35,454 nucleotides of DNA, taken from positions 1-35,454 of the forward strand of contig MEHG01000010.1 of assembly GCA_001940705.1 (NCBI GenBank). Direction: 5' to 3'. Made by a program: the position numbers and the translations under genes. Position 1 is the stretch's first letter; every line of letters starts with the position of its first letter. Of this stretch, positions 2,819-24,195 are shown one piece after another. The notes beneath the pieces were generated by a model. It was given only the letters and a program-made list of their open reading frames with translations. It did not search any database and had not been told where the DNA came from. Origin of the DNA: Candidatus Thorarchaeota archaeon AB_25 (GTDB taxonomy: Archaea > Asgardarchaeota > Thorarchaeia > Thorarchaeales > Thorarchaeaceae).

Positions 2819-3688
2819 TCACAAAGCTTCCTTTAGGAGCCTGGCAACATCACTCGGTTTGTCTGCTACTGCAACTCCTGCATCATTTAATGCCTTGATT
2901 TTCGCTGCTGCAGTCCCTGAACTTCCACTGATTATGGCACCAGCATGTCCCATACGTTTTCCGGGGGGTGCAGTCCTGCCTGCAATGAAGCCAACTACTG
3001 GAAGGTCGTATTCCTTCTTAATGTAGGCTGCAGCCCGTTCTTCAGCGTCACCACCAATCTCACCTACTAGGACAAGTGCTTTGGTGTCCTTATCCTCTTT
3101 GAACAGTTTGACAGCCTCAATTGTTGTCAGCCCCACGCATGGATCGCCTCCAAGACCAAGTGCGGTTGATATTCCAATACCTGCGTTGGTCATCCCAGCT
3201 GCAATCTCATAGGTCAATGTTCCACTACGAGACATGAGTCCAACATCACCATGTGAGAACACATGACCTGGCATGATTCCGACCTTCTGTTTTGCACCAG
3301 GAGTGATGATTCCTGGAGTGTTAGGACCAATCACTGTGATTCCTTTTGCCTTGGCCTCATGAATCACGCGAATCTCATCTTTAACAGGCACATGTTCGGT
3401 AATCAGGACTACTGGGTTTAGGTCCGCTGCAATGGCCTCAAGAGCGGCATCCCCGGCAAAGGGTGCTGGAACGAAGATGATTGACGCATTTGCACCTTGT
3501 TCGTCCTTTGCCTCAATAACGCTGTCATAAACTGGTACTCCATTCACAACCTCCCCAGATTTACCAGGTGTGACTCCAGCAACTATCTTTGTACCATACT
3601 CCAACATTGCTCCAGAATGGAATGTTCCCTGCCCACCAGTGATACCTTGCACTATGACCTTGGTGTCTTTGTCCACAAGAATTGCCAT
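2819..3688 (-). CDS. sucD: succinate-CoA ligase (ADP/GDP-forming) subunit alpha
   Basis: CoA-binding and phosphohistidine subunit of succinyl-CoA synthetase, interconverting succinyl-CoA and succinate with substrate-level NTP formation. The 289-residue protein shows the N-terminal CoA-binding Rossmann fold ([11 protein letters not shown]), GPNTPGI, and SRSGTLTYE. The active-site histidine lies in [10 protein letters not shown] (His248), the residue phosphorylated in the family. The ATG directly follows the sucC stop (TAGATG), with GGAGGT inside the end of sucC as Shine-Dalgarno. Translational coupling and 1:1 stoichiometry are likely. Confidence 0.97.
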
Positions 3689-4834
3689 CTATGCAACCTC
3701 CTTCACGAGATCAACTACCTTTGAGGCAGCATCTTCCATCGTCTTGAGGAACGGTATCCCTGCTTTGTTGAGTATCTCTTGCCCCTCTTCTTCGTTTGTC
3801 CCTACCATCCGAATCACCATGGGTGCAGTGATGTCCCCGTCGTTTCTTGCAGCCAGAATTCCCCTGGCAACATCGTCGCATCTAGTGATGCCTCCCATAA
3901 TGTTGACTAGGATTGCTTTCACCTTGGGATACATCAAAGCAATCTCTATGCCCTTCTCAACTCTCTCAGCATCCGCTCCACCTCCAAGATCGAGAAACGT
4001 ACTTGCTTCTCCTCCATAGAGTGATATTGCATCCAGTGTCGCCATTGTGAGACCTGCACCATTGCAAATACATGCGATATTTCCATCAAGTTCTACGTAT
4101 GCCATGTCATTCTCAGTGGCTAATTTCTCACGTTCATTTTGTTCAACAGGTTCGCGTTTGAGCCTCTCAATGATGGTTTTGTGTCTGTAGAGCGAGTTAT
4201 CATCGATATTCAACCTCGCGTCTGCAGCAAAGAATCTACCATCCTTTGTAAGAATTAGTGGATTAATCTCAGTTAGTTCAACATCATACGCCTCGACAAT
4301 CTTCCAGAGTTTCAAGAAGAAGCTACCTAGCTGATTGATTTGTTTGCCCTTGAATCCCATTGCTATTGCCATCTGGCGAGCTTCGAATGCTTGGAAACCA
4401 AGACTAGGATCGACATGCATCTTGATGATCTTCTCTGGACTCTCCTCTGCCAGTTCTTCGATTGACATTCCTCCGGCCGCACTACCGATTACGACGTACT
4501 TCCGCTCGTTCCGATCAATGGTTATTCCAGCATAGATTTCTTGCTTAATGTCCAATTTTTCTTCGATCAAGACGGCCTCAACTGGGAGGTCGTTGATACG
4601 CATCTTCAGGATTTCTTCTGCGTATTTCTCTGCTTCCTGTGGTGTATCAGCAAACTTTACACCACCGGCTTTTCCTCGTTTGCCTGCAAGAACCATCGCT
4701 TTTACGACAACAGGTTTTCCAACCTCAGTCGCACGTTCCTTTGCCTCTTTTGGAGTCATCGCAACGCCTCCAGGAGGAGTTAGCATCTTGAAGGCTCGGA
4801 AGATATCCTTGGCCTCATGTTCAAACAATTTCAT
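3689..4834 (-). CDS. sucC: succinate-CoA ligase subunit beta
   Basis: ATP-grasp and succinate-binding subunit partnering sucD. The 381-residue protein opens [15 protein letters not shown], the typical SucC start. The nucleotide-binding grasp segment is [19 protein letters not shown], the metal-binding region includes ELTEINPL, and the C-terminal flavodoxin-like domain has [13 protein letters not shown] and [13 protein letters not shown]. Family length is about 380-390, so it is complete. It is the first gene of a two-gene operon. The ATG at 4834 has a GGTGGTTG ribosome site. ADP versus GDP preference cannot be read confidently. Confidence 0.97.
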
Positions 4835-4905: not shown

Positions 4906-7107
4906 TTACCTCATGGACTCTAATAATAAATGCAGACTTTTTTCGAGCTTCTTACTCTCTTTTCGTGCACTATGTTTGGAATCTAGGAGTTTGAGGAGGA
5001 TTGAGTTTACATACTCCAGTTCCTCCAAGCAGTTCTCTACAATCCCCGGCATGTCATCTTCGCAGATGATGTTCTCAATACTCTTCGCTGGTAATTTACT
5101 CAATACGCGTTTTACTACTTCTTTGGGAATGGTGGTCCGTGTCAACACAACATTCCTCAGAATCGTCTTCAAATCGCTCTTTTCGTCAGCAATTGCCTTC
5201 ATCACTCGCTTAGCATCTTTTACAGGTACACCAAGAACTGCAACATCTTCTCCCAGTTCAGTGCAACGTACTCCGTCTTTATCACGGACAATTAATCGGT
5301 CTGCTTCTAGTTCATCGTACACTTCAAGTCCACGAAGTGCCTGCATTATCACACCTGCAGCATAGGGCTTGGTGTCCTCCTCATTGAGTGCATATCTTGC
5401 GAATTTCACCAAATGTTTACAGAGTCTATGTTTCCTTATGCCTTGGTATTTCCATGATTCACAAGAGCATGAAACGCCATCTTTTGCCCTCAGTGTAGTA
5501 TAATGCCAAATCTCTCTACTGCCACTGTGCACAAGACCCTCTATCTTATCTGGTCTGACCGATACAAGTTTCACACTTTTATCAGGTATTTCTCTTGCTC
5601 TTGAAAATGTGGATCTTGTAGACCTGAGTGTGAGTAGATTCTCCACTGCTGTTTCATCTTGACTTTCAGCCTGACGAATATCTGTTACAAGGCTACTGCT
5701 TCCCCAGAATGTACGGTCAATCACTGAGAAGGGGTCTTCTCCTCCCTTGGATTTTCCACATAGCTGTCGCAATACCAGGTCCTGAACATTCTCAGTTTCA
5801 TCCATTACGCTGTCTACTTCACCATGCCTTGGTTTTAGATTGCCTTCTGAATCCTCTTCGAAGTACTTAGCAATCACTCGAACTCTTTCAGACTCGTTAT
5901 CGACCACAACGATACCAAACGCCTCGTTGTCAACTCCCCTTCTTCCCGCTGCTTCAAGAACATCACTCAACTGCCACTCAGACAGCATTGTGACTGCATC
6001 CTCCTGAGAAGCCTCCTCGCCAAACTCTTGCATAAAGACTCCCATCAGGAAAACAACAGTCGCTCTCAATCCACTAGCAATGGCAAAGCGAGTTGGCATT
6101 ACAATGACTGGCAGAAGACCATCCTCCCAAGCCTCTGAGAGTTCTCTTCTCTGAATTATACCAACTCCTTCATGGATGAATGCAACTCCCTTGGAGATAG
6201 TTTGGCTCAGATTTATGGTGGTTTCACATTGAGGGTATTTCTCCTTGATGTCAAGTGAGAGAAGCCTGAGGTCATCTCTATGCTCGGGTGATAGTCTCAA
6301 GTCAAGAGCTGACGTTTTACTACCTGTTTCGATATCTGCTAGTTGGAGGGCCAATTCCTCGCAGGTGGCTATATTTGCGGCCAGTATCATCACTTGCCCC
6401 TGCCTATAGGTGACAAACTGGGTCTGGTCTGTAAGTGAGTCATCTGAATCTTCAAAGGTCATCACACTGAAAATCATCTTCACATCTACCTTAGGATCCT
6501 CCACAATCTCTGCACTCAACCATTTTCCAAGCTCCTCTTTATCCTCAAGAGGTGGGCAGATGGCTGCATATTGAATATCTCCTTGGCTCAAAAAAGTCAC
6601 AAGGGCTGTTTCTAGACGTGCTCCGATACCCGGTTGTCCAATCAGATCAAGACGATCAACCAACACATAGACTACTCCATCAAGAATATCCGGATTGACC
6701 CGTGAAGCGATGTCCAGTGAAGTATAGGTCGCAACTACAACTCTACCGGAGCCTGCATCTTCTCTTGTTGCAGCCCTTCTCCGAATCATTTCCGAAGCCT
6801 CGATACCTAGACGGTGGCATTTCTGGCTTAATGATCGAAATCGTTTCTCTGCTTGGTGCGGGTTAGGACAAAGTACCACTGCTCGTGCCCTATGGTCTGA
6901 AGCAACACGGTTGAGGAGCGCAATCTCGCCAATCATATACGCCTCATCATAGTCATATGTCATGAGAAGCTGGCTATTCCCTCTCATTATTCCTTGTTGA
7001 ACTGAAGCGGACTGGAATCTAGTGAGTGTGGCAAGTCCTTGCCGTCTGAGCAACTCCAACAGACGTGGGGCGACTTGTTGAAGTTCCAATTCCTTAAGAG
7101 TGCTCAA
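4906..7107 (-). CDS. Ski2/Hel308-like pseudo-helicase with SWIM zinc finger
   Basis: 733-residue cytosolic protein with the layout of a Ski2-like superfamily 2 helicase but eroded ATPase motifs. A Q-motif-like LTRFQSASVQQGIMRG is present, yet the Walker A position reads MTYDYDEAYM (about 49-58) with no GKT. The DExH box reads DRLD (151-154). In RecA2, IHEGVGIIQRRE echoes the family's HHAGL...R, MPTRFAIASG echoes T.LA.GvN, and GRRG echoes GRAGR. A SWIM zinc finger follows (Cys547, Cys549, Cys563, His565), then a winged-helix-like segment and a charged helical tail. It probably binds nucleic acid without translocating. It starts at TTG 7107, with GAAGGAG 9 nt upstream. Confidence 0.75.
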   Translation of the reverse strand: MSTLKELELQQVAPRLLELLRRQGLATLTRFQSASVQQGIMRGNSQLLMTYDYDEAYMIGEIALLNRVASDHRARAVVLCPNPHQAEKRFRSLSQKCHRLGIEASEMIRRRAATREDAGSGRVVVATYTSLDIASRVNPDILDGVVYVLVDRLDLIGQPGIGARLETALVTFLSQGDIQYAAICPPLEDKEELGKWLSAEIVEDPKVDVKMIFSVMTFEDSDDSLTDQTQFVTYRQGQVMILAANIATCEELALQLADIETGSKTSALDLRLSPEHRDDLRLLSLDIKEKYPQCETTINLSQTISKGVAFIHEGVGIIQRRELSEAWEDGLLPVIVMPTRFAIASGLRATVVFLMGVFMQEFGEEASQEDAVTMLSEWQLSDVLEAAGRRGVDNEAFGIVVVDNESERVRVIAKYFEEDSEGNLKPRHGEVDSVMDETENVQDLVLRQLCGKSKGGEDPFSVIDRTFWGSSSLVTDIRQAESQDETAVENLLTLRSTRSTFSRAREIPDKSVKLVSVRPDKIEGLVHSGSREIWHYTTLRAKDGVSCSCESWKYQGIRKHRLCKHLVKFARYALNEEDTKPYAAGVIMQALRGLEVYDELEADRLIVRDKDGVRCTELGEDVAVLGVPVKDAKRVMKAIADEKSDLKTILRNVVLTRTTIPKEVVKRVLSKLPAKSIENIICEDDMPGIVENCLEELEYVNSILLKLLDSKHSARKESKKLEKSLHLLLESMR

Positions 7108-7370: not shown

Positions 7371-8117
7371 ATGGTCATGGCTTTCGTAGCTACCACTGAT
7401 TCATCTTTCAAAATCATATTGAAGAAAGACTTCAAGGTCAAACCAGGATCGACTTTCATCTGTGGATTTCATGGTTTAGGTGAAGTAGGTTTCTTGAGCA
7501 CAGCCCATCTGACTCGAACCTTGGAGGCTGAACGTGTTGGTTTCATCAAGAGCGATATGCTCCCACTCTTCGTTTCAATGGAGAATGAACGTCTTGTTCT
7601 ACCATTTGAGCTCTATTCCTATGATAAGAAGAAGATGATATTTCTAGTTCCGCGTTTTCAACCACACCAGTCTGAACAATGGGGTTTCATCGATAAGCTA
7701 GCATGTTGGGTGGCTGAAAATAAGTTCAAAGAAGTACTGCTCCTTGGAGGGCTCGACGCATCTTTCAAGGAAGATGAAGAAGATATGCGATGTGTGCCAA
7801 CTTCCGCATATGGAGAATTGCTTGAAAAATGGAAAGTTCCTATCCTTGAAGAAGGTCTGTTCGTGGCTGGACCACTAGCACTGTTCCTTGCAGAGCTTGA
7901 GATGCAAGACGTTCCTGCGATTGGTTTACTCACATACGCAACCAGAGGCCGTCCTGACCCACGGTCTGCAGCAACTATGCTTGAAAAGATCAATGAAATC
8001 TATGGCGTAGGGGCAAATGTCGAGCAACTCCTCGAAGAGTCCCGAGAGATTGAACGGCTTGAGAAAATGAGGAAATCCATCGAGGATTCAGATCGCACAA
8101 GCGATATGTTTGTCTAA
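7371..8117 (+). CDS. PAC2-family proteasome assembly chaperone-like protein
   Basis: 248-residue cytosolic protein of the PAC2/PbaB family. It has an N-terminal beta-strand region with GFHGLGEVGFLSTAHL, the family's characteristic P-G-x-G-x-V-G-like loop. LLLGGLDA, a glycine-rich GLFVAGPLALFLAEL helix entry and IGLLTYATRGRPDP follow, with a charged C-terminal helix. Archaeal PbaA/PbaB homologues chaperone assembly of the 20S proteasome alpha ring. The extreme C-terminus reads DMFV, a Phe version of the HbYX (hydrophobic-Tyr-any) proteasome-docking tail. ATG at 7371 or 7377 are both possible. Its TAA overlaps the stop of the converging NIP7 gene (CTAA, 8114-8117). Confidence 0.82.
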   Translation: MVMAFVATTDSSFKIILKKDFKVKPGSTFICGFHGLGEVGFLSTAHLTRTLEAERVGFIKSDMLPLFVSMENERLVLPFELYSYDKKKMIFLVPRFQPHQSEQWGFIDKLACWVAENKFKEVLLLGGLDASFKEDEEDMRCVPTSAYGELLEKWKVPILEEGLFVAGPLALFLAELEMQDVPAIGLLTYATRGRPDPRSAATMLEKINEIYGVGANVEQLLEESREIERLEKMRKSIEDSDRTSDMFV

Positions 8118-12843: not shown

Positions 12844-15800
12844 GTGAGTTACACGACACGCCAAATCTCCCAAATAGTGAACGAGAGGACTAGTCCAGTG
12901 AGCGCCGCAACGAAATCTTCCCGCAGAAGAATGGGTCTTACCACCCTCATAAGCGCAATCTTCATAGTCGCAAGTCTCGTTTGGGCAACATATAATTTTG
13001 TAATCGTTCAGTCCGGTTCTGTCCGTCAGTATGACCCACATTATGAATATGATGATATTGAACTCTGGCCATACAACATACCAGGTTGGGGCGGAGGAAG
13101 AACCAATTGGTTTGATAATTTCAACTACACAGATGGTCTTGTTGGTCAGCCACTTCCAGATGATCTTCTTGACCATTTAGATGACATCATATTTACGGTG
13201 GTACCGAGAGACCCACCCCAGTTATGGCGGGTCGGTGCGTATGACGATTATGATGGTTCAAACTGGGGCAAAATCAACGTTGGTACTTGGCCTGTGGACA
13301 CAGGTGCACAGCTGATAACATATGGTGAGGCGACCAACCCAGTTTACACTGTGATTTTTAACACCACCGCAGGTGCCACAGTTGGCTCAATTGAGCTACC
13401 TACGCTCTTTCCAGAGATACGCGTGATTGAGGATTCTTTCACCGTATGGAGCTTCTATCCAGATGGTACACCATATCGTGATCCTGGCCGGCTCTTGGAC
13501 TATGATTTAGAAACTGACGAGTATGGTACACTTCTCTTTACACCATTCATTCAGGGATCTACTGGTGAAGAAGTCGTAGTTTCATTTGACCTCACTTTCG
13601 AAACTCAGGACATAGATAATGTCATTGCCAATGCACTACCCGGTAGCGGTGCTGTGGGAATGGATGACTACCTCGGTTTGCCTACATTAACTCCAGAAGT
13701 AATCGCCAACATTAGTCAATTTTCAGGCGTTGGAAGTAATGCATATGAAACGGCTATGGCTGTTCAACTATACTTCCAAAGCACCTTCAATCTCACAATT
13801 AATCCTACAGCATTAGGCGACCGACCAGAAGGTCAAGAAGTCACTGATTGGTTCCTCGAACGTGGTGGCGGACTTCCGATGGACTTTGCCACTGCGTATT
13901 GTGTGTTCATACGGCATCTCGGTATTCCTGCTCGTTTGGCGATGGGTTATGCAGTCGGTGACCCCGACCCAATAGATGACTTTAGAACGATCAAAGTCAG
14001 ACATATGGCCTTCTGGACCGAGGTCTTTATTCCAATGTCAGGAGCCACTCAAGGTGAGTGGATTCAAGTCGTTCCTGCAGTGTTGCCTGATGATTCAGGT
14101 GGTGGTGAGGATCCTACCAACGTACCAACACCTGATGTTCAACTCAGAGTTTGGCCCACAAATGGACAACCGTGGGCACAGATTGGAACTCCCTTTGAGT
14201 TGAGCGCTGAAATCACTGTGGATGGAGTTCCTGTCACAACTCCTGAGCCTATCATCTTCCATGATGAAACTGACAATGAGTTCATAGGTGTCCAAACAAT
14301 TGGACAGGCACCTGACAACCCCATTGCAAATATCACATACGTATTTCCTGCACATGCTTCTGTAGACTATCATATTATGGCTGCAACTTGGCAGGCAGGG
14401 ACACTCTCGATCACGAATCGAACGTCAATCTATGCTGTAGGAACACCAGATCCTTATGCATATCCATCACCTCCCGCTGGCATTGATGGGTTTGTCTTGA
14501 GTGAAACGAGGGATCTAAATGTCAGTCAAGGCTTAGACACCCACATTGCATTTTGGGAGGACACAGTCCATGTCTATGGAACAATGAAAGTGGGTGGAGT
14601 CCCCGTTAACAGTACAAATCATGATAACAGGAATATCGGTATCTACTGGGATAATTCATTCATGGGAAATGCATCCATTGACCAGTATGGCTATTATGAA
14701 TTAGACATCTATGTCGATCCAATGGACCTTTCAAGAATGATTGTGGGAAATCACGAAGTCTGGTCGTGGTACTTGGGAGATTGGGATCAATATGGTATTC
14801 CCCGATTGAATGAAGCACGTTCGAGTGACAACTCCACTGCTACGGTTTGGGGTCGAGTGGGATTCGATTTGAACGTATACCCAGTCAATATTGCTGCTGG
14901 AGGAAGAGTCTACTATGATGGTTTCGTTTATCTCCTAAACGGTACAGCCTTACGAACGAGCCAGTTTGTAGGGGCTTTCTTTCATACGCAGGCTAATGCT
15001 ACACGCCCATTGAACTCCACAGGAGGTTTCCAGTGGAGCTACGATATACCTGTGACCCAACCTGATGGTATATATTTTGCACGGGTTAACTGGACTTCTC
15101 CGTGGCCACTCATCGCAGGTAACTGGAGCATTTCTGTTCCAGTGGATGTTGGTTCCAGTGGGACGCACCTCTCAATCTCTCCATTACCAGATCCTCTCTA
15201 CGTAGCTTGGAATATCACAATCAGCGGATACTTGACCCATGCATCTAATGCCACTGGTATAGGTGGTCGTTGGGTTGATATCTATTGGAATAATGGATCG
15301 GAATTTCTCTTAGGATCAGTACTCACGGCTTCTGATGGTTATTACGAGTTCAACTACACAGTTCTTGTTTCTGATGAAGGTCCAATTGAATACTGGTCAA
15401 GCTTTACATCAATGGAACCAACTCTAGCAAGTTCAGAATCAGTTCACCGTTTTACAAGTGTGAAGAAATATGATGTATCTCTGGACCCAATCTTTGTTAC
15501 TCCTGACCCTGTGTATCTTCTTCAACCAGTTGATATTCAGGGAACGCTACAGCTCTCAGAGTTTGGAATTCCATTACCCAATGAATGGGTTGATTTCTGG
15601 TTACAGAACAGCACAGGTGTCTTCTATATTGGAGGTGTGATGACAAACTCCACTGGTGGCTATCTCTATCAGTATACAATCCCTATAGGTCAGACTACTG
15701 AAACAGTGTACATCTGGGCAAACTACACTTCGCCTTACTATACAGTCTATGATAAGGAGTCAATTCATGAACCTCTAGATATTCAAGCCACAGGCACTCT

Positions 15801-18800
15801 CATTTCGATTCAGGAAGACTTCATATTCTATTATGTGAATGAAACCATTTTCCTATACGGAAATCTACAGTTTGCGAACGGTACCCCGATTCCCTCTCAG
15901 TTGGTTGATATCTATTGGATTAACTCAACTGGTACCTTCCATTTCCAGAAGATGACTGATGCATTTGGGGATTACCAGATGTTCTACAACTGTACTCCAA
16001 CGCAAGATGAGCCTGAAACAATATCTGTGGATGTTTATTGGACTTCTTGGACTCCAATCTACGATGATGCCTCCAGTTCGCTAGCGCCTCAGATACAGCT
16101 ACAGAGATATGACCTTGAGATTACGCTCACAGTTCCGACCCAGCTCTATGTAGATGAACTAGACTTCGATGTTGAGGGAGTGCTCTCATATACTGGTGGT
16201 GCTCCACCCCTCTCGAATGAGTGGGTCGACATCTACTACTCGAATGGTACTCATTGGCTATTGATTGATAGTCAATTGACTAACTCCACAGGAGGATTTC
16301 TATCGCTACTCTCTTTTGCGACCTATGATGAAGGGATAGTTGATTTTGCAGCATTCCACGCAAGCTCTGACCCGTTGAGAAACAATGCTTTAGAATACTT
16401 TAGTATCAATCGAGTGAAGTACACAATTACTCTCGATGTTACTATCAATCCCAATCCGGTCATGCAAAACGAAACTCTCACTGTTCATGTTCATGCTTAC
16501 TTTACACACAATGGAACTAATCTCTCAGGTGCCACAATATCATTATTCTGGAATAATGGCACACTACCGCTTCCTTGGCTTGGTGATGTTATAACAAATA
16601 GTACTGGTCAGGACGACTTAATCTACTCAGGAATGGACTGGGACACTGTCAGAACGGGTATTGAGGTCTATGGTATCTACGGAAACACAGTCTTCATTGC
16701 ATCAGTTGAGTCAGCCCATAACATTCTCACACTGAACCAATGGCAGACTGCGTTCGCAGGTGTCAACCTCCCTGTGGTATTATACAGGATTGGTGAGACT
16801 GTGGTGGTGACTGGGGATCTAGAAATCTGGAAACCTTCATTTCCAAGTGTTCCATACGCTAGTGCAACGGTTGAACTGACACTGTTTGGAACTACAAGGA
16901 CAACTGATGTGACAACCTCAGACGGGTCGTTTACCCTGAGTTGGGATATACCTGGGACAATCGCTCCAGGGTTCTATGACTTGTTTGTTGAATTCAATTC
17001 GCCATATCCATGGATAGCAGACTCAGCATCCGCATTGCCACAGATACAGGTCGTTGCACCTGGATATCTATGGCCTGAGTTCTCAGTTACGCCTACAACA
17101 GTCTATTTGGACCAGATATTGAACATAACAGGTAGAGTGACCTGGGACAATGGAACACCATACGCGAGTTCCCCAGTTGACCTCTACTGGGGCGATTATT
17201 TTGGTGCATACGATTGGTTTGTTCTGAACTTCAATACAGACTCTAGTGGTAGGTTTACGTATCTCTATCCAATCCCTGATGATATGGGTCTTCTTGGTCC
17301 TCGAGAGGTCTGGGCATACATCGATCAAGTTGGCTATGCTACTTCTGGTGAGTCACCTCGCATTCCAATCACCATAGCCATTTACACTATTAATCTCTCA
17401 GCTTCCGTAGATCTCACAATCATCTACCTGGAAGACAGTCTGACCTTTTCAGGGACTCTGCAGTTCACAAATAGTACTCCCATGGTCGACTATGATATTG
17501 AGATCTGGTGGGGTGGAAATCTTCTCACTACAGAAACAACCATTGGTGGGGGCGCGTTCATCTACATTCTTTCAGTGACCTATAGCTATGATGCTGATGT
17601 CTACACAGGATATGCATTATTCAGACCACCATCGATTGCTTTTGGTGATCTCGATACACCTGAACCCTTCAGTGATGTTACTGTGATTGAGCGTGTAGAT
17701 GTTTCTATGGACCTAGAGCCCTCTGATACCATTGTTAGCAGAGGTGAAACACTCGTCATTACGGGTGATGTAATCAACGATGGCGTGTTACCAGCAGATG
17801 GAGTTACAGTCGAGGCACTTGTAAATGGAATTCCAACAGGCGCGATGGCTGTTACGGCTGGAAATGGCCGCTATTCAATCTCATGGGTGGTTCCCGGATT
17901 CCAACCCCGTGGTTCTTACAACATCAGTGTGCATGTGATTTCATCATTCCATGAGATGTTCGCTGGACCATCAAATTGGTTTATAGATGTCTACATAGGT
18001 TCTGACGTTTTTGTACAAACAGATCTAGTATCTATAATGCCCGGAGAAAGTTTCTCAGTATATATTGAGCTTCAAGACGATGATAGCAATAATCTCCATG
18101 GTGAGTGGGTCCGGTTATTCATCGGCTCGATACGCCTTACAGATATTCAACTCACTGACGCAAGTGGAATGACATTTGATTTGGTAGTGCCCTTATCCTG
18201 GGATGGTGGAAGTGCACTCTTCAATATCACTGCACGTTATGCTGGTATGTCCTTTGTCGATCCCAGTATTGCTATGTCCATTAACCAGATCCATATCTTC
18301 ACTGACGTCGTCTTCATCTCAATTCCAGACAGGGTGGATCCCGGTCAGGACTTCAACATAGAGTCAACATTCCGCGATCCAGAGGGCAACCCCATTATGT
18401 TTCGTACCGTGTGGCTGGATTACAATGGTACAGATCGGTATCCCTACTTCATAGATGCAGATGGGGGATTCACACATCCTGTAGCTGCACAGACCGATGG
18501 GACGATAATTCAGTACACACTTACACTCGTTTCATTTGAAATTGATAATATACAATCTAATGAGTTCACAATTAATATTCAAACACAAGGTGGTAATCCA
18601 TTGCAAGGAACAGATTTACTCATAGCAGGTATCTTACTTATAGGTGCAGTCGTCGCCGTTCTGGCGTACCTGTACATAGTAAGGGGAATGTTCCGCGGTC
18701 CTGTTGTTTCGAGAGGATTTGACATCCCAGCAAAATTGCGAAACATCAAGAAACTCGCAGATGCAGGAAAGTATGGTGCTTCCATCACATTAGCTTACCG

Positions 18801-19047
18801 TACTTTTGAGCAGATGTGCGGCGCAAAGATGGGTTCAGAAAGAACTCACTCTGAAACCGCCCGTGAGTATCTTGATAGGGTCCTAGAAACAATTTCCCTC
18901 GATAGTGGGACTGTTGAACAATTTGTGCAGACATACGAAGAGGCTCGCTTTTCACATCATGAAATGACACGTGAGAGGTATGAAGAGGCCGTTCGTATCT
19001 TCACTGACCTATATCCCAGAATCGATTCAGCTGCCCCAGTAGAGTAA
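12844..19047 (+). CDS. giant membrane-anchored surface protein: transglutaminase-like domain, Ig-like repeats, DUF4129-like tail
   Basis: 2067 residues. There is a basic N-terminus, TM about 32-55, and a large exported region ending at a second TM (about 1925-1947). A cytosolic tail of about 110 residues (TLAYRTFEQMCG ... YEEARFSHHEM) resembles DUF4129. Residues about 280-412 align with transglutaminase-like domains (WFLERGGGLPMDFATAY, RHLGIPARLAMGYAVG, FWTEVFIP), but the Cys position is Pro345, the His position Ala389 and the Asp position Val410. About 14 Ig-like modules of roughly 100 residues follow, many with WVDIYW.NGT and TNSTGG motifs and many N-x-S/T sequons. It starts at GTG 12844 with no clear ribosome site. 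This gene begins the MoxR/DUF58 operon. Confidence 0.82.
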   Translation: MSYTTRQISQIVNERTSPVSAATKSSRRRMGLTTLISAIFIVASLVWATYNFVIVQSGSVRQYDPHYEYDDIELWPYNIPGWGGGRTNWFDNFNYTDGLVGQPLPDDLLDHLDDIIFTVVPRDPPQLWRVGAYDDYDGSNWGKINVGTWPVDTGAQLITYGEATNPVYTVIFNTTAGATVGSIELPTLFPEIRVIEDSFTVWSFYPDGTPYRDPGRLLDYDLETDEYGTLLFTPFIQGSTGEEVVVSFDLTFETQDIDNVIANALPGSGAVGMDDYLGLPTLTPEVIANISQFSGVGSNAYETAMAVQLYFQSTFNLTINPTALGDRPEGQEVTDWFLERGGGLPMDFATAYCVFIRHLGIPARLAMGYAVGDPDPIDDFRTIKVRHMAFWTEVFIPMSGATQGEWIQVVPAVLPDDSGGGEDPTNVPTPDVQLRVWPTNGQPWAQIGTPFELSAEITVDGVPVTTPEPIIFHDETDNEFIGVQTIGQAPDNPIANITYVFPAHASVDYHIMAATWQAGTLSITNRTSIYAVGTPDPYAYPSPPAGIDGFVLSETRDLNVSQGLDTHIAFWEDTVHVYGTMKVGGVPVNSTNHDNRNIGIYWDNSFMGNASIDQYGYYELDIYVDPMDLSRMIVGNHEVWSWYLGDWDQYGIPRLNEARSSDNSTATVWGRVGFDLNVYPVNIAAGGRVYYDGFVYLLNGTALRTSQFVGAFFHTQANATRPLNSTGGFQWSYDIPVTQPDGIYFARVNWTSPWPLIAGNWSISVPVDVGSSGTHLSISPLPDPLYVAWNITISGYLTHASNATGIGGRWVDIYWNNGSEFLLGSVLTASDGYYEFNYTVLVSDEGPIEYWSSFTSMEPTLASSESVHRFTSVKKYDVSLDPIFVTPDPVYLLQPVDIQGTLQLSEFGIPLPNEWVDFWLQNSTGVFYIGGVMTNSTGGYLYQYTIPIGQTTETVYIWANYTSPYYTVYDKESIHEPLDIQATGTLISIQEDFIFYYVNETIFLYGNLQFANGTPIPSQLVDIYWINSTGTFHFQKMTDAFGDYQMFYNCTPTQDEPETISVDVYWTSWTPIYDDASSSLAPQIQLQRYDLEITLTVPTQLYVDELDFDVEGVLSYTGGAPPLSNEWVDIYYSNGTHWLLIDSQLTNSTGGFLSLLSFATYDEGIVDFAAFHASSDPLRNNALEYFSINRVKYTITLDVTINPNPVMQNETLTVHVHAYFTHNGTNLSGATISLFWNNGTLPLPWLGDVITNSTGQDDLIYSGMDWDTVRTGIEVYGIYGNTVFIASVESAHNILTLNQWQTAFAGVNLPVVLYRIGETVVVTGDLEIWKPSFPSVPYASATVELTLFGTTRTTDVTTSDGSFTLSWDIPGTIAPGFYDLFVEFNSPYPWIADSASALPQIQVVAPGYLWPEFSVTPTTVYLDQILNITGRVTWDNGTPYASSPVDLYWGDYFGAYDWFVLNFNTDSSGRFTYLYPIPDDMGLLGPREVWAYIDQVGYATSGESPRIPITIAIYTINLSASVDLTIIYLEDSLTFSGTLQFTNSTPMVDYDIEIWWGGNLLTTETTIGGGAFIYILSVTYSYDADVYTGYALFRPPSIAFGDLDTPEPFSDVTVIERVDVSMDLEPSDTIVSRGETLVITGDVINDGVLPADGVTVEALVNGIPTGAMAVTAGNGRYSISWVVPGFQPRGSYNISVHVISSFHEMFAGPSNWFIDVYIGSDVFVQTDLVSIMPGESFSVYIELQDDDSNNLHGEWVRLFIGSIRLTDIQLTDASGMTFDLVVPLSWDGGSALFNITARYAGMSFVDPSIAMSINQIHIFTDVVFISIPDRVDPGQDFNIESTFRDPEGNPIMFRTVWLDYNGTDRYPYFIDADGGFTHPVAAQTDGTIIQYTLTLVSFEIDNIQSNEFTINIQTQGGNPLQGTDLLIAGILLIGAVVAVLAYLYIVRGMFRGPVVSRGFDIPAKLRNIKKLADAGKYGASITLAYRTFEQMCGAKMGSERTHSETAREYLDRVLETISLDSGTVEQFVQTYEEARFSHHEMTRERYEEAVRIFTDLYPRIDSAAPVE

Positions 19048-19065
19048 GATAACGGAGAGATACGA

Positions 19066-20451
19066 ATGGGCTGGAAAGAGATCCTGCAAGTGATCCTATT
19101 CATCTTAGCATGGATTCCAGTGGGTATTCTAGCTGGAAGTACATTGATTGGAGTAGAGTCAAGCTACGCCTATGACTTCTCCATATACAACGATCAATAT
19201 GATGGTCTCAGCCAGTTCTCGAACAACATTGAAAGTAACGGTCGAGATGTCATGTCGATCCAAGCTAGCATGAGCGTGGCATCGAGATACAACGGGTCTG
19301 CTGTAATTGTTATCATGGGGCCTGTTAGAGACTTTAGTCTGGATGCAGCGCTTGTCATATTTACTCATTTGATGGCAGGTGGTGGTGTACTCATCGCTGA
19401 CGACTTTGGGTCCGCGAACTCATCACTTGCATTACTGAACTTTCTCTTCAACGAGTTCATCGGGTCCAATCAAACAGCAGGTCTCTTATCGTTCTTAGAT
19501 GGAGTTCTTTTCGATTTAGATTCGTATGATTTAGAAAAAGAGCCAAGACTGCCTATCATCAGAGACTTCAGAGTAGGTGGTGATGGTGGGGCACTAACAG
19601 CAGGAGTTAGCGAACTACACCTCAACTGGGCCTCAGCAATCAATCCTTATTGCTTACTTGGTCAATCTGGTATTGCTTGGACAACGCCACGGTCATGGTG
19701 TGAAACAGACATTACGAATGACACTCCAGCGGTGGACCCCTGGGAATTAGCTGGAACCCTTCCTGTTGCTGGCGCAATTGATTTGGGGGCTGGTGGTGGG
19801 AAACTGGTCGCGGTCAGTGATCCCAGTATATTCAATAATGACATGTGGAGTAGGTTCTCTGGGAATCGTCGGTTTGGCGACAACATAATTGACTGGCTCA
19901 CAGATGGTAATACGTCCCAACCCGTTCTATTCTGCGAACAGCTTCTTGAGATTCCATGGTGGGAGAGTGAATTCTTCTTCGGACTATACTTAGGCAGGGT
20001 CCTATGGCTCTCATCATTGCCTATTTTGTCAGCAGCCTATCCCCTCATCACTACTCTGGGAATCAAAAAATACCTCCCTGACATAAAGAAACCCGATGTC
20101 AAGAGTGTTTCAGATGTATTTTTGAGACGGGGCCAGACGTATTTCAGCGAACGGATGACTTACTACCGGTCAGAGGGGAACTATACAAGAGTAGTAAAAA
20201 TGTTGTACCGCCGTTTGAGACGGGGATTACGAAAAACACAGCAATGGACTGAATATGATTCCAAGAAAGTGTGGGAAACAATGCATTACAAAGATCCGAA
20301 ACTAAAGGAGAATGAGTTCTTCAGAATTATTGCTCGTATTGAGGAGATCTCTGCAAATCCAAATATCAAGATTAAGGAGAATGAGATGATGGAGCTCTTC
20401 TTCTTCATGCGTAACATCCAATCACATATGATAGACACAAGAAAGAGGTAG
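19066..20451 (+). CDS. DUF4350-type membrane protein
   Basis: 461 residues. TM at about 7-29, then an exported region with a DUF4350-like Rossmannoid core: VIVIMGPVRDFSLDA, LMAGGGVLIADDFG, GGKLVAVSDPSIF, a GATase-like fold seen beside MoxR/DUF58 genes. A second TM lies at about 303-330 (GRVLWLSSLPILSAAYPLI), followed by a basic cytosolic helical tail of about 120 residues. No catalytic residues can be assigned. It begins 18 bp after the giant gene with GGAGAG before the ATG. The AGAGG at its 3' end serves as ribosome site for MoxR. It probably forms part of a membrane complex with its operon partners. Confidence 0.8.
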   Translation: MGWKEILQVILFILAWIPVGILAGSTLIGVESSYAYDFSIYNDQYDGLSQFSNNIESNGRDVMSIQASMSVASRYNGSAVIVIMGPVRDFSLDAALVIFTHLMAGGGVLIADDFGSANSSLALLNFLFNEFIGSNQTAGLLSFLDGVLFDLDSYDLEKEPRLPIIRDFRVGGDGGALTAGVSELHLNWASAINPYCLLGQSGIAWTTPRSWCETDITNDTPAVDPWELAGTLPVAGAIDLGAGGGKLVAVSDPSIFNNDMWSRFSGNRRFGDNIIDWLTDGNTSQPVLFCEQLLEIPWWESEFFFGLYLGRVLWLSSLPILSAAYPLITTLGIKKYLPDIKKPDVKSVSDVFLRRGQTYFSERMTYYRSEGNYTRVVKMLYRRLRRGLRKTQQWTEYDSKKVWETMHYKDPKLKENEFFRIIARIEEISANPNIKIKENEMMELFFFMRNIQSHMIDTRKR

Positions 20452-20458
20452 AACAAAA

Positions 20459-21448
20459 TTGACAACAGAAGAAACGAACGACACTGTGGCTATAGACACC
20501 TCGGCGACTATGTCAATAGACGAGGTTCATAGTAACGCGAGTGATATCATTCGAGAATGCAGCCGCATTATCGTTGGGAAAGAGGACATCCTACGTGATG
20601 TCCTAATCGCTTTCCTCTCTAACGGTCATGTTGTACTTGAAGGAGTACCTGGCATCGCGAAAACCTACATGGCTCGAACATTCGCTTCTATTTTGGGCTG
20701 TGCATTCAAAAGAATACAGCTCACTGTGGACACACTTCCAGCTGACTTGTTGGGAAGTAATGTGTTCAATCAGCGAACAGGCGAGTTCTGGTTCCGTAAA
20801 GGTCCAGTTTTTTCAAACCTTGTACTGGCTGACGAGATTAACAGATGTCCTCCCAAGTCACAGAGCGCATTACTCGAGGTAATGGAAGAACGACAGGTAT
20901 CAATTGAGGGTGTAACCCGTAAGCTCCCGAAACCGTTTCTGATTATCGCTACTCAGAACCCGGTAGAACAGGAGGGTACGTACCCCCTACCAGAAGCACA
21001 ACTTGACAGATTCATGTTCCGTCTGATACTGGGCTATCCTACTGATGAAGATGAAGCTGAAATTGTCAGGAGGAAACATCTTGGTGAAGCAACTGACCTG
21101 AATGTTCTAGCAGATCCTGCCGCGATGGTAAGGATGCAGAACACATGCAGAACCGTGTTCATCGAAGAAGATGTCATCAACTACATACGTGACATCGTTG
21201 TTCGCACACGAAATGACCCACAAATCCTGCTTGGAGGTTCCCCACGAGCATCACTAGTGCTCATGAACTCATCAAAAGCCCGTGCTGCAATGCTTGGTAG
21301 AGACTACGTCATCCCTGAGGATGTTCGCCGGCTCACAGTGCAAGCTCTGAATCACAGACTCATCCTAAAACCTGAGGCTGAGCTTGAAGGATTGACGGTG
21401 GAACGTGTCGTAACCAAGATACTTGGGGAAACTGATTGTCCGAAATGA
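20459..21448 (+). CDS. moxR: MoxR-family AAA+ ATPase
   Basis: 329-residue cytosolic AAA+ chaperone-like ATPase. Walker A is GVPGIAKT (62-69), Walker B is LVLADEINR, sensor 1 is ATQNPVEQEGTYPLPEAQLDRF, and a C-terminal lid carries GGSPRASLVLM. MoxR proteins act with vWA-domain partners to mature or activate protein complexes, and DUF58/vWA is encoded next. It starts at TTG 20459, seven bases after the DUF4350 stop, using AGAGGTAG as Shine-Dalgarno. Operon membership is clear. Confidence 0.95.
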   Translation: MTTEETNDTVAIDTSATMSIDEVHSNASDIIRECSRIIVGKEDILRDVLIAFLSNGHVVLEGVPGIAKTYMARTFASILGCAFKRIQLTVDTLPADLLGSNVFNQRTGEFWFRKGPVFSNLVLADEINRCPPKSQSALLEVMEERQVSIEGVTRKLPKPFLIIATQNPVEQEGTYPLPEAQLDRFMFRLILGYPTDEDEAEIVRRKHLGEATDLNVLADPAAMVRMQNTCRTVFIEEDVINYIRDIVVRTRNDPQILLGGSPRASLVLMNSSKARAAMLGRDYVIPEDVRRLTVQALNHRLILKPEAELEGLTVERVVTKILGETDCPK

Positions 21449-21487
21449 AAATTGTCTATGCCATAAGCTAGATGGGGAAGATACGAA

Positions 21488-22810
21488 TTGATAACGCAGA
21501 GAGGCTTCGTGGTAGTGTTCGCAGGAGTCTTACTACTAACTAGTGGGTTCTCCTTCATTAACTTCTACCTCGTCCTCCTAGGTGTCTATTGTGTGATTGG
21601 TCTAGTAGTCACGTTGCCTCTCTTTGCGTTGACCGCCAATCTAGCTGGTATTGAAGTTGATCGTCAGATCGACAAAGTGAAAGTGTTCTCGGGAGATTTT
21701 CTACGGGTACGCGTTACAATCCGGAATACGTCTAGACGTCATTTTGACTTTATAGAGGTCCATGACCAATATCCAGAAACCTGGATATTGGCAATTGGTG
21801 AGAACTTCATCGCATCCAGGATTGAGCCTGGGAGCAGTATGACCTTCTCGTACATTCTACAAGCACGAATGCGTGGTCGTTACTATCTTGGACCAACCGA
21901 GGTTATCATGCGGGATAGACTTGGTCTGCACTACTACAAGAGAACCCTGAAGGAACACACCGAGGTACTCGTCTATCCGACATGGAAAGACGTTCGTCGT
22001 ATGGAGTCCTTCGCAAAGCAACGACAGCTTGGTCTCATGTTTGGTGCCCACCGTACCAAGACAGTGGGAATGGGTACTGATTTCGCAGGTTTCAGAGAAT
22101 ATGTTCCCGGTGATGAGTTCCGGTCCATTGATTGGAAATCGAGCGCAAAACGAGGTGACATGGTAGTCAAGCAGTGGGAACAAGAGAAGAATGTGCAGAT
22201 TGTTTGCATGGTGGATACTAGTGGAAGTATGGGGAACGGCTATCCTGAAAACACGAAACTCGAGTACGCAATTCGAGCAGCAGTCCTCCTCACTCACATG
22301 GGCCTTGAGAGGAAAGACTTGGTTGGTACCTGCGTCTTTAGTGACATTGTACATGGATATGTTCCTCCTGGAACCCGACCCAACCATATGTATGACGTTC
22401 TTGAAGTCCTAGCAATGGCTGAACCTAAAGGATGGAGTGACTACGAAACTGCTATTGCACATGTAGTAACACAGAGTAAGAAACGCTCGCTTGTCATCTG
22501 GATGACCGATCTTGAAGAGAGTCCTGCACCACTTCTCAATGCCATGAAGACCTTGGTGGCAAACGGTCACAAAGCTCTTATAATCAGTCCATTCGGTCCA
22601 TGGTTTGAAGCACCAGTTGGTCAATTTGGACCAGTTGAGAAGGTACTATCAGAAGCTGTATCTGAAGAGCTCTGGGAACGTAGAAACAAGATAGCCAGAG
22701 CACTATCCCGATTTGGAATTGATGTGATCAATGTTGGTCCAGAGGATTTCCTGGCCGTTATCATGAAGACTTACGAACAAGCAAAGCAACGGGGGGTGGC
22801 TACGTTTTGA
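21488..22810 (+). CDS. DUF58 protein with vWA-type MIDAS
   Basis: 440 residues. Two N-terminal TM segments (about 7-24 and 27-50) are followed by a beta-rich region. The DUF58 hallmark FREYVPGDEFRSIDWKSSA comes next, then a vWA-like domain with an intact metal site DTSGS (243-247) and later WMTDLEES. It is the expected partner of MoxR, in which the ATPase and MIDAS protein remodel a client. It starts at TTG 21488 preceded by GGGGAAGA. The stop TGA overlaps the TTG start of the next gene. Confidence 0.92.
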   Translation: MITQRGFVVVFAGVLLLTSGFSFINFYLVLLGVYCVIGLVVTLPLFALTANLAGIEVDRQIDKVKVFSGDFLRVRVTIRNTSRRHFDFIEVHDQYPETWILAIGENFIASRIEPGSSMTFSYILQARMRGRYYLGPTEVIMRDRLGLHYYKRTLKEHTEVLVYPTWKDVRRMESFAKQRQLGLMFGAHRTKTVGMGTDFAGFREYVPGDEFRSIDWKSSAKRGDMVVKQWEQEKNVQIVCMVDTSGSMGNGYPENTKLEYAIRAAVLLTHMGLERKDLVGTCVFSDIVHGYVPPGTRPNHMYDVLEVLAMAEPKGWSDYETAIAHVVTQSKKRSLVIWMTDLEESPAPLLNAMKTLVANGHKALIISPFGPWFEAPVGQFGPVEKVLSEAVSEELWERRNKIARALSRFGIDVINVGPEDFLAVIMKTYEQAKQRGVATF

Positions 22811-24195
22811 AAGTTGTCACATGGATTCTTCGGATTGCATCCGTCGCAACTTTCGCGGCCATGGCTTTCCTAGTCTATACCATTCTTGATCCAAATGACT
22901 TCTGGCATTGGGATGCTCCATACACTTTCGTAGTGACTGTATTCCGTTTGCTCTCTTTGATTGTCTTCTTCCTTGCATCAACAATGGCGAGTGGTCTTGC
23001 CAGCGCATTTGCAGGTGGAGTTTTGCCTGACAATCTGGTTGTGGGTCTCTACAACACACTTGTCCTCAAGACTTGGTATATGCAACCCTATGGATTATCA
23101 GATCCCTTAGCAAACGTACAACAAGTCTGGGCATCTTTTCAGTCCAATTTAATTAACGTACTTTTTGATCTCTGGGACAATACATTTCTATTTCTCTACT
23201 TCCTATGTGCTGGAATCGGTATAGCCCTATTTCTCCAATCACTTGTGAGGATGGATCACAAGTTTGTTGGCGGTGCCTTCCTCGCAATCCAAGCAATAGT
23301 CATTCTCGCTGCTTACAGAGCCCTTATTGTTCCAGACATTAGTCCTTTCCCTGTCGAGTTTGTTGATTTTCTTTTGGCAAGAGCGCAAATCCTTGCTCTC
23401 GCTTCCTTTGCGTATCTCGAAGTAAGCTATCAGATGATCTACAGTTATTCGGTTGGGAAACCGGTCGAAGATAGAGAAGAGACCCTCAAGAAACAGCTGT
23501 TGGCACTACGTCAAGCGACAAGGAAACAAGATGCAATTGAACGTGGTGAGAAGGTAAGCACAACTGGCATGAGTCGCTCAACAGGTGCAACTGCATTTTC
23601 ATTCCTCAGAGAGGCAATGGAACGAAAAGTAATGGGAAGTCAATCGGCGCTTGAGAGTTTGGATGCTGTATCAGATGTCCGTAGACTACAGATATACGTT
23701 GATGAATTACTTCAGAGTGACTCAAGAGCAAGAGATGAACTGACAGCAAAAGCCGCTGCTCCTTCATCCTCCTATGTTATTGGTTCCACAATTACTGGTT
23801 CAGCAATACGGTTCCTCACTGTTGTGGCGGTGTCATTCCTCCTGATGAGTCCCAATGTGGTTAGGATGATCCTCAATCTACCAATCGGTATAGAAAATAG
23901 CGTTGAGATGATTCAGCCTGAGATTGTCATCTTGTTTCTTGTACCAGTAGTTGGACTCTTCCCTTTTGCTGCTGCAGTCATCAGTTGGATTGGGAGACGA
24001 GAGGTTGTTGAGAAAGAGAAGCTCACAAAGGAAGAGAAGGAAGCTCAAAAGCAGAGGAAGAAGGAACTGGCCAGAAAACGGAAGGAAGCTGAAGAAGCCC
24101 GCAAAGCTCGTGCGAAAGCTAGGAAGAAGCGAAAGGATGATGAGGTAGAAGTGGACGAATGGGACAAGGCTCTTGAAGACTCCTTCAAACGATAG
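22807..24195 (+). CDS. multispanning membrane protein with charged coiled-coil tail
   Basis: 462 residues, family not recognised. About four TM segments lie in the first 200 residues (TWILRIASVATFAAMAFLVY, a second around residue 40, FLYFLCAGIGIALFL, AFLAIQAIVILAAY). There are further hydrophobic stretches near 195-215 and 340-365, and FLVPVVGLFPFAAAVISWI near 380. A strongly charged Lys/Glu/Arg helix (KEEKEAQKQRKKELARKRKE) ends in a DUF-free acidic tail. It starts at TTG 22807, overlapping the DUF58 stop (TTGA), with GGGGGGTGG as ribosome site. As the last operon gene, it probably is a scaffold or membrane partner for the MoxR machinery (inference). Confidence 0.75.
   Translation: MKVVTWILRIASVATFAAMAFLVYTILDPNDFWHWDAPYTFVVTVFRLLSLIVFFLASTMASGLASAFAGGVLPDNLVVGLYNTLVLKTWYMQPYGLSDPLANVQQVWASFQSNLINVLFDLWDNTFLFLYFLCAGIGIALFLQSLVRMDHKFVGGAFLAIQAIVILAAYRALIVPDISPFPVEFVDFLLARAQILALASFAYLEVSYQMIYSYSVGKPVEDREETLKKQLLALRQATRKQDAIERGEKVSTTGMSRSTGATAFSFLREAMERKVMGSQSALESLDAVSDVRRLQIYVDELLQSDSRARDELTAKAAAPSSSYVIGSTITGSAIRFLTVVAVSFLLMSPNVVRMILNLPIGIENSVEMIQPEIVILFLVPVVGLFPFAAAVISWIGRREVVEKEKLTKEEKEAQKQRKKELARKRKEAEEARKARAKARKKRKDDEVEVDEWDKALEDSFKR

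Follow-up and report, generated by a model that had tools for sequence, protein, structure and literature searches.

The locus examined here raises the question of whether a protein built like a Ski2-type helicase can be kept by selection without its ATPase site, and of what such a protein would then do. The gene lies in the window—the whole 35,454-nucleotide stretch of DNA from Candidatus Thorarchaeota archaeon AB_25—at positions 4906..7107 of the minus strand, as are all of its features named below, and an earlier note on this DNA had read it as a Ski2-like pseudo-helicase with a SWIM zinc finger. The open reading frame encodes 733 aa from a TTG start and is free of internal stops; the call is backed by Hel308 model and PDB matches, AlphaFold, and Foldseek.

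The Ski2/Hel308 plan that the earlier note had described is borne out by profile models, sequence matches, and predicted structure. NCBIfam Hel308-type models match aa 8-421 (E 1.3e-22 to 2e-12), with a best score of about 72 bits that falls far short of the equivalog cut-off of 1200 for the Hel308 family. The PDB sequence match is to Hel308/Hjm 2zj2 (E 4e-17), a relationship that extends over aa 10-421. The AlphaFold model has a Hel308-like fold (pLDDT 81.5, pTM 0.80); Foldseek matches it over the full length to Hel308/Hjm 2zj5 (E 3.7e-24, TM 0.66/0.71) and also returns Mtr4 and Brr2. The predicted protein retains two RecA-like domains and the C-terminal helical architecture: a RecA1-like domain (aa 10-205, 6493..7080) seen in the AlphaFold model and in the alignment to L035, an intact relative from another Asgard group; a RecA2-like domain (aa 206-430, 5818..6492) seen in the Hel308 models, the PDB sequence match, and the AlphaFold model; and a C-terminal helical region (aa 580-733, 4909..5370), present in the AlphaFold model and aligned to Hel308 domain 4, the ratchet, of active relatives. 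In L035 the C-terminal region matches Helicase_dom4_arc, and profile homology to the pseudo-helicase extends through it.

The ATP site is a different matter. A residue census of 35 near-full-length orthologues, aligned, provided the survey of Walker positions that had been proposed as a check, and the losses claimed from the single sequence were confirmed: there is no GKT at the former Walker A, or motif I (aa 50-57, TYDYDEAY; 6937..6960; motif tables, census, and P-loop scan), and the former Walker B, or DExH motif II (aa 151-158, DRLDLIGQ; 6634..6657; motif tables and census), reads DRLD at aa 151-154. The Walker A lysine position is occupied by Ala in 32 orthologues and by Gly in three, and the preceding P-loop glycine has become Glu55 in 35/35; Asp52 is equally invariant, and Tyr53 and Tyr57 are nearly so. 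In motif II the glutamate is replaced by Arg152 and the H/Q by Asp154, each in 35/35, leaving no DExH box, while the former motif III, or SAT (aa 184-186, CPP; 6550..6558; motif table), has Pro185 at the alanine position in every orthologue. The GRRG remnant reported for RecA2 was found as AGRRG (aa 387-391) within the former motif VI (aa 385-393, EAAGRRGVD; 5929..5955; motif table and census). Here the first arginine of GRAGR is lost, giving way to Ser, Ala, or Gly, and the second stays Arg or Lys (Arg389 is R in 30/35 and K in 5/35). Relatives in the same alignment retain GKT/GKS, DExH/Q, GRAGR, and mostly SAT.

The pseudo-helicase aligns with L035 over aa 7-175 without a gap, which indicates that the former P-loop was replaced in place, not displaced. 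A P-loop pattern scan found none anywhere in 33 of the 35 orthologues, and the chance matches in the other two lie at other, unconserved positions. A P-loop moved to another loop, which the earlier note had named as a possible refutation, is ruled out by the alignment and the scan together; no conserved one was found. The former motifs are also more conserved than average, with window entropies in the lowest 8% for motif I, the lowest 6% for motif II, and the lowest 2% for the strongly conserved former motif V (aa 338-351, PTRFAIASGLRATV; 6055..6096; conservation windows). Judged from the alignment, the residues that would bind and hydrolyze ATP are gone in every orthologue aligned. An invariant charged set (Asp52, Glu55, Arg152, Asp154) replaces the predicted ATP site—at the level of sequence, this is replacement under constraint, not random decay.

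The SWIM zinc finger (aa 544-569, CxC(x13)CxH; 5401..5478; Pfam, conservation windows, and census) is intact, with its ligands exactly as first named: Cys547, Cys549, Cys563, and His565 are each invariant in 35/35 orthologues, and the finger is the most conserved window of the protein (lowest 0.1% by entropy). Its Pfam scores are low; the protein from the window reaches 16.5 bits against PF04434, under the gathering score of 19.6, and 34/35 orthologues match the model weakly (E up to 0.1), with the ligands kept in all. The surrounding region is basic (pI 9.5 for aa 505-580).

Orthologues were detected by profile search in 45 of the 47 genomes of the family to which the window belongs (Thorarchaeota). 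Beyond the family, the same profile found none in 181 genomes of the phylum, where scores fall off sharply: nine of these genomes give weaker matches (106-299 bits, whereas full-length orthologues exceed 1000), and the matches inspected have intact motifs. Among family genomes at least 90% complete with at most 5% contamination, the pseudo-helicase is present in 13/13, once as a fragment, and the active SWIM-bearing paralogue in 12/13. A contig scan recovered 37 pseudo-helicase loci, almost all from Thorarchaeota; the two labelled Lokiarchaeota match family members (G027, G032) by contig coordinates. A search for viral relatives found none. By the NG86 method, dN/dS is 0.067-0.111 in five pairs (dS 0.25-0.84) and 0.054-0.071 in more distant pairs, for which dS is near-saturated; the active paralogue gives similar values (0.047-0.088). 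These ratios show that the predicted gene is under strong purifying selection. The earlier note had concluded as much from the open frame; its conclusion holds (dN/dS about 0.07-0.11), but the open frame as sole argument was weak. The pseudo-helicase reading—a putative helicase fold that lacks ATPase motifs and is under purifying selection—is strongly supported by the losses common to all orthologues (35/35 in the census), the invariant replacements, the selection, and the gapless alignment of the dead site onto the Walker positions of active relatives.

The origin of the protein was addressed with a tree built with the motif columns excluded. SWIM-bearing proteins form one clade separate from canonical Hel308 (support 100/100), and the pseudo-helicase groups with them, which rules out an ordinary canonical Hel308 paralogue. 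Pseudo-helicases themselves form a single clade (100/100), and the stem leading to it is very long, at 3.4 changes per column; the best tree joins them to L035 (84/76), and a union with the active Thorarchaeota paralogues is not rejected (p-AU 0.32). Profile comparison with hhalign gives E 1.6e-72 over 708 columns for the L035 (other-Asgard) set and E 5e-41 over 654 columns for the Thorarchaeota paralogues. As far as sequence can tell, the pseudo-helicase is a Thorarchaeota-wide derivative of a SWIM-Hel308 sister branch of Hel308, and the other Asgard members of that branch mostly look active. These relatives (the own-genome paralogue L002, L035, and L038-L043) have the same architecture with the SWIM finger at the same place, and differ in keeping the motifs that the pseudo-helicase has lost. 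Archaeal Hel308/Hjm (Ski2-like SF2; PDB 2zj5, 2p6r, 2va8) likewise shares the two RecA-like domains and the whole-length fold; in contrast, the pseudo-helicase lacks Walker A, DExH, and SAT, has a partial motif VI, and carries the added SWIM finger.

Several related helicases are of separate interest. Two SWIM-Hel308 proteins of one family (f3; L036, L040) keep GKT and DEFQ, with SAT changed to SDI and the motif VI arginines lost (GKAGN), possibly a second, independent loss of helicase activity. A canonical Hel308 (L071, G054:C120) has an intein-like insertion at motif V that starts CLAPDTKI and ends VHN. In family f13, Ski2-like helicase genes are greatly expanded in genomes G057 and G217 (loci L141-L163), each with 9 to 11 matches; some of the encoded proteins have open frames of about 1300 aa.

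The active Thorarchaeota paralogue has surroundings of its own. It lies away from the pseudo-helicase locus (L172:531-18395 on G000:C1 in the same genome, also L173-L179), in a conserved gene cluster that also encodes a Rad51/RadA homologue, a Rad51-like ATPase, an XPD/DinG-type helicase, an XPG-type nuclease, a KaiC-like ATPase, and several proteins without a Pfam match (550, 784, and 694 aa). The cluster has the look of a recombination or repair system not described before. Elsewhere among the Asgard families, RadA-like genes lie close to some of the active relatives as well (L166, L167, L171), with a FEN1-like gene in L166.

We think it probable, on balance, that the protein is a catalytically dead SWIM-Hel308 paralogue fixed in Thorarchaeia, acting as an ATP-independent scaffold or cofactor, with the recombination machinery as the partner that we favor. 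Acidic residues in the phosphate-binding loop would repel phosphate and, with Arg152 at the position of the catalytic base, would block ATP binding; replacements of the Glu55/Arg152 type may lock the former ATP site, perhaps through salt bridges. Without ATP, the protein would then bind nucleic acid and other proteins, using its basic SWIM region together with the conserved segment of motif V and the helical C-terminal part. The least certain step is the partner, which would be the recombination machinery containing the active SWIM-Hel308 paralogue, engaged in trans. Counted against the binding scaffold is the acidity of the whole protein (pI 5.3), and counted against the partner is the position of the gene outside the recombination cluster. 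In several genomes that carry the pseudo-helicase, among them G023 at 93% completeness, the search detected no active SWIM paralogue, and an obligate pairing is conjectural. The role first proposed, as a regulator or as part of an exosome or repair complex, seems plausible; the genomic context holds nothing specific to the exosome and, via the active SWIM paralogue, hints weakly at recombination or repair.

The closest functional precedent for the scaffold we favor is the C-terminal Ski2-like cassette of Brr2, which is inactive yet essential, is kept by selection, and serves as an interaction platform that regulates the active cassette (PMC8220420). The Brr2 cassette still binds nucleotide (PMC8220420), so that losing hydrolysis does not entail losing binding, and each has to be claimed on its own. 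It is also fused to its active partner in cis, whereas the pseudo-helicase stands free and has an acidic P-loop. A second likeness is to Shu2/SWS1, which shares the SWIM zinc finger, is not a helicase, and works with Rad51 paralogues; the active relatives of the pseudo-helicase adjoin Rad51-like genes. Lys568 stands at the position where SWS1 proteins carry the conserved Ala after CxH.

The alternative that survives best, although we consider it unlikely, is a scaffold on the RNA side that binds RNA in a processing, ribosome-assembly, or decay complex, comparable to Utp25 or to a dead Mtr4/Ski2. The conserved neighborhood of the pseudo-helicase hints weakly in this direction with genes for an NSUN/RsmB-type RNA methyltransferase, a UPF0113/PUA protein, a deaminase, and a beta-CASP RNase, and the Foldseek matches to Mtr4 and Brr2 agree with it. 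Utp25 offers a precedent: it is a pseudohelicase that has the helicase fold but can dispense with the motifs (PMC9539457). It is of the DEAD-box type, eukaryotic, and active in ribosome biogenesis, unlike the Thorarchaeota protein. We know of no SWIM finger in Utp25. Two observations weaken the RNA reading: the nearest relatives are Hel308-type, with active SWIM relatives beside Rad51, XPD, and XPG genes, and the metabolic genes sucCD and thrC lie within the same block, making the neighborhood a mixed one. More doubtful is the bolder proposal that Thorarchaeia converted a SWIM-Hel308 recombination helicase into an ATP-independent component, with the former ATPase site reshaped into a new conserved site of function (Asp52/Glu55/Arg152/Asp154), and that this component belongs, together with the active SWIM helicase, to an Asgard recombination system not yet described.

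The adjacency of sucCD suggests another role, which we rate as less likely again: a regulator that, as the product of the first gene of a pseudo-helicase-sucC-sucD operon, binds DNA or RNA and tunes succinyl-CoA synthetase or its own expression. The pseudo-helicase gene is directly upstream of co-directional sucC (3689..4834, minus strand) and of sucD (2819..3688, minus strand), the next gene in the probable operon, in 37/37 loci compared; its gap to sucC is 51-84 nt in 30 of them and 155-167 nt in seven. By comparison, the spacing to the divergent PAC2-family gene conserved in the family (7371..8117, plus strand) varies from 194 to 1094 nt. The TTG start codon (7105-7107) is kept in 27/32 orthologues (loci L073-L108), and the downstream sucC starts with ATG. 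However, the wider gene block is conserved across the family, which makes the adjacency weak functional evidence; no regulatory domain is recognized, and at 733 aa the protein would be large for a regulator of this kind. Homologues of sucC were located in some genomes outside the family, and no sucCD was seen beside active SWIM-Hel308 relatives in the neighborhoods read.

It is improbable that the reworked site binds a metal or other ligand, or forms an unusual nucleotide pocket, in a protein that is still an enzyme or sensor. The four invariant charged residues, the near-invariant Tyr53 and Tyr57, and the above-average conservation of the former motifs speak for it; a structural salt-bridge network fits the same pattern, and no known catalytic constellation is recognized. 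Decay of an active helicase gene into a pseudogene, to which the loss of every ATPase motif might point, has practically no likelihood left and is refuted, as is an assembly error, by the purifying selection (dN/dS about 0.1 or lower), the identical losses and replacements in all orthologues, the open frames, and the synteny at 37 loci.

In the literature searched, we found no account of a Ski2-like pseudo-helicase that stands alone as a protein and is fixed in a single archaeal lineage; to our knowledge, pseudo-helicases that are free-standing and fixed in a lineage have seldom been documented in archaea. With a close active family and an invariant replaced site, the protein lends itself to a clear-cut test of how helicases turn into scaffolds without enzymatic activity, comparable to the Brr2 cassette, in a host group close to eukaryote ancestry. 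The finding also leads to an Asgard SWIM-Hel308 family linked to Rad51-type genes, of which the literature search found no description, although a 2024 paper on Ski2-like helicases of archaea may mention it.

Two minor observations concern the window itself. The conserved TTG start of the pseudo-helicase may reflect selection for low translation. Further along, positions 12844-24195 encode, from translations read by eye, a 2067-aa secreted protein with transglutaminase-like and Ig-like repeat regions, with MoxR-like and DUF58-like genes downstream.
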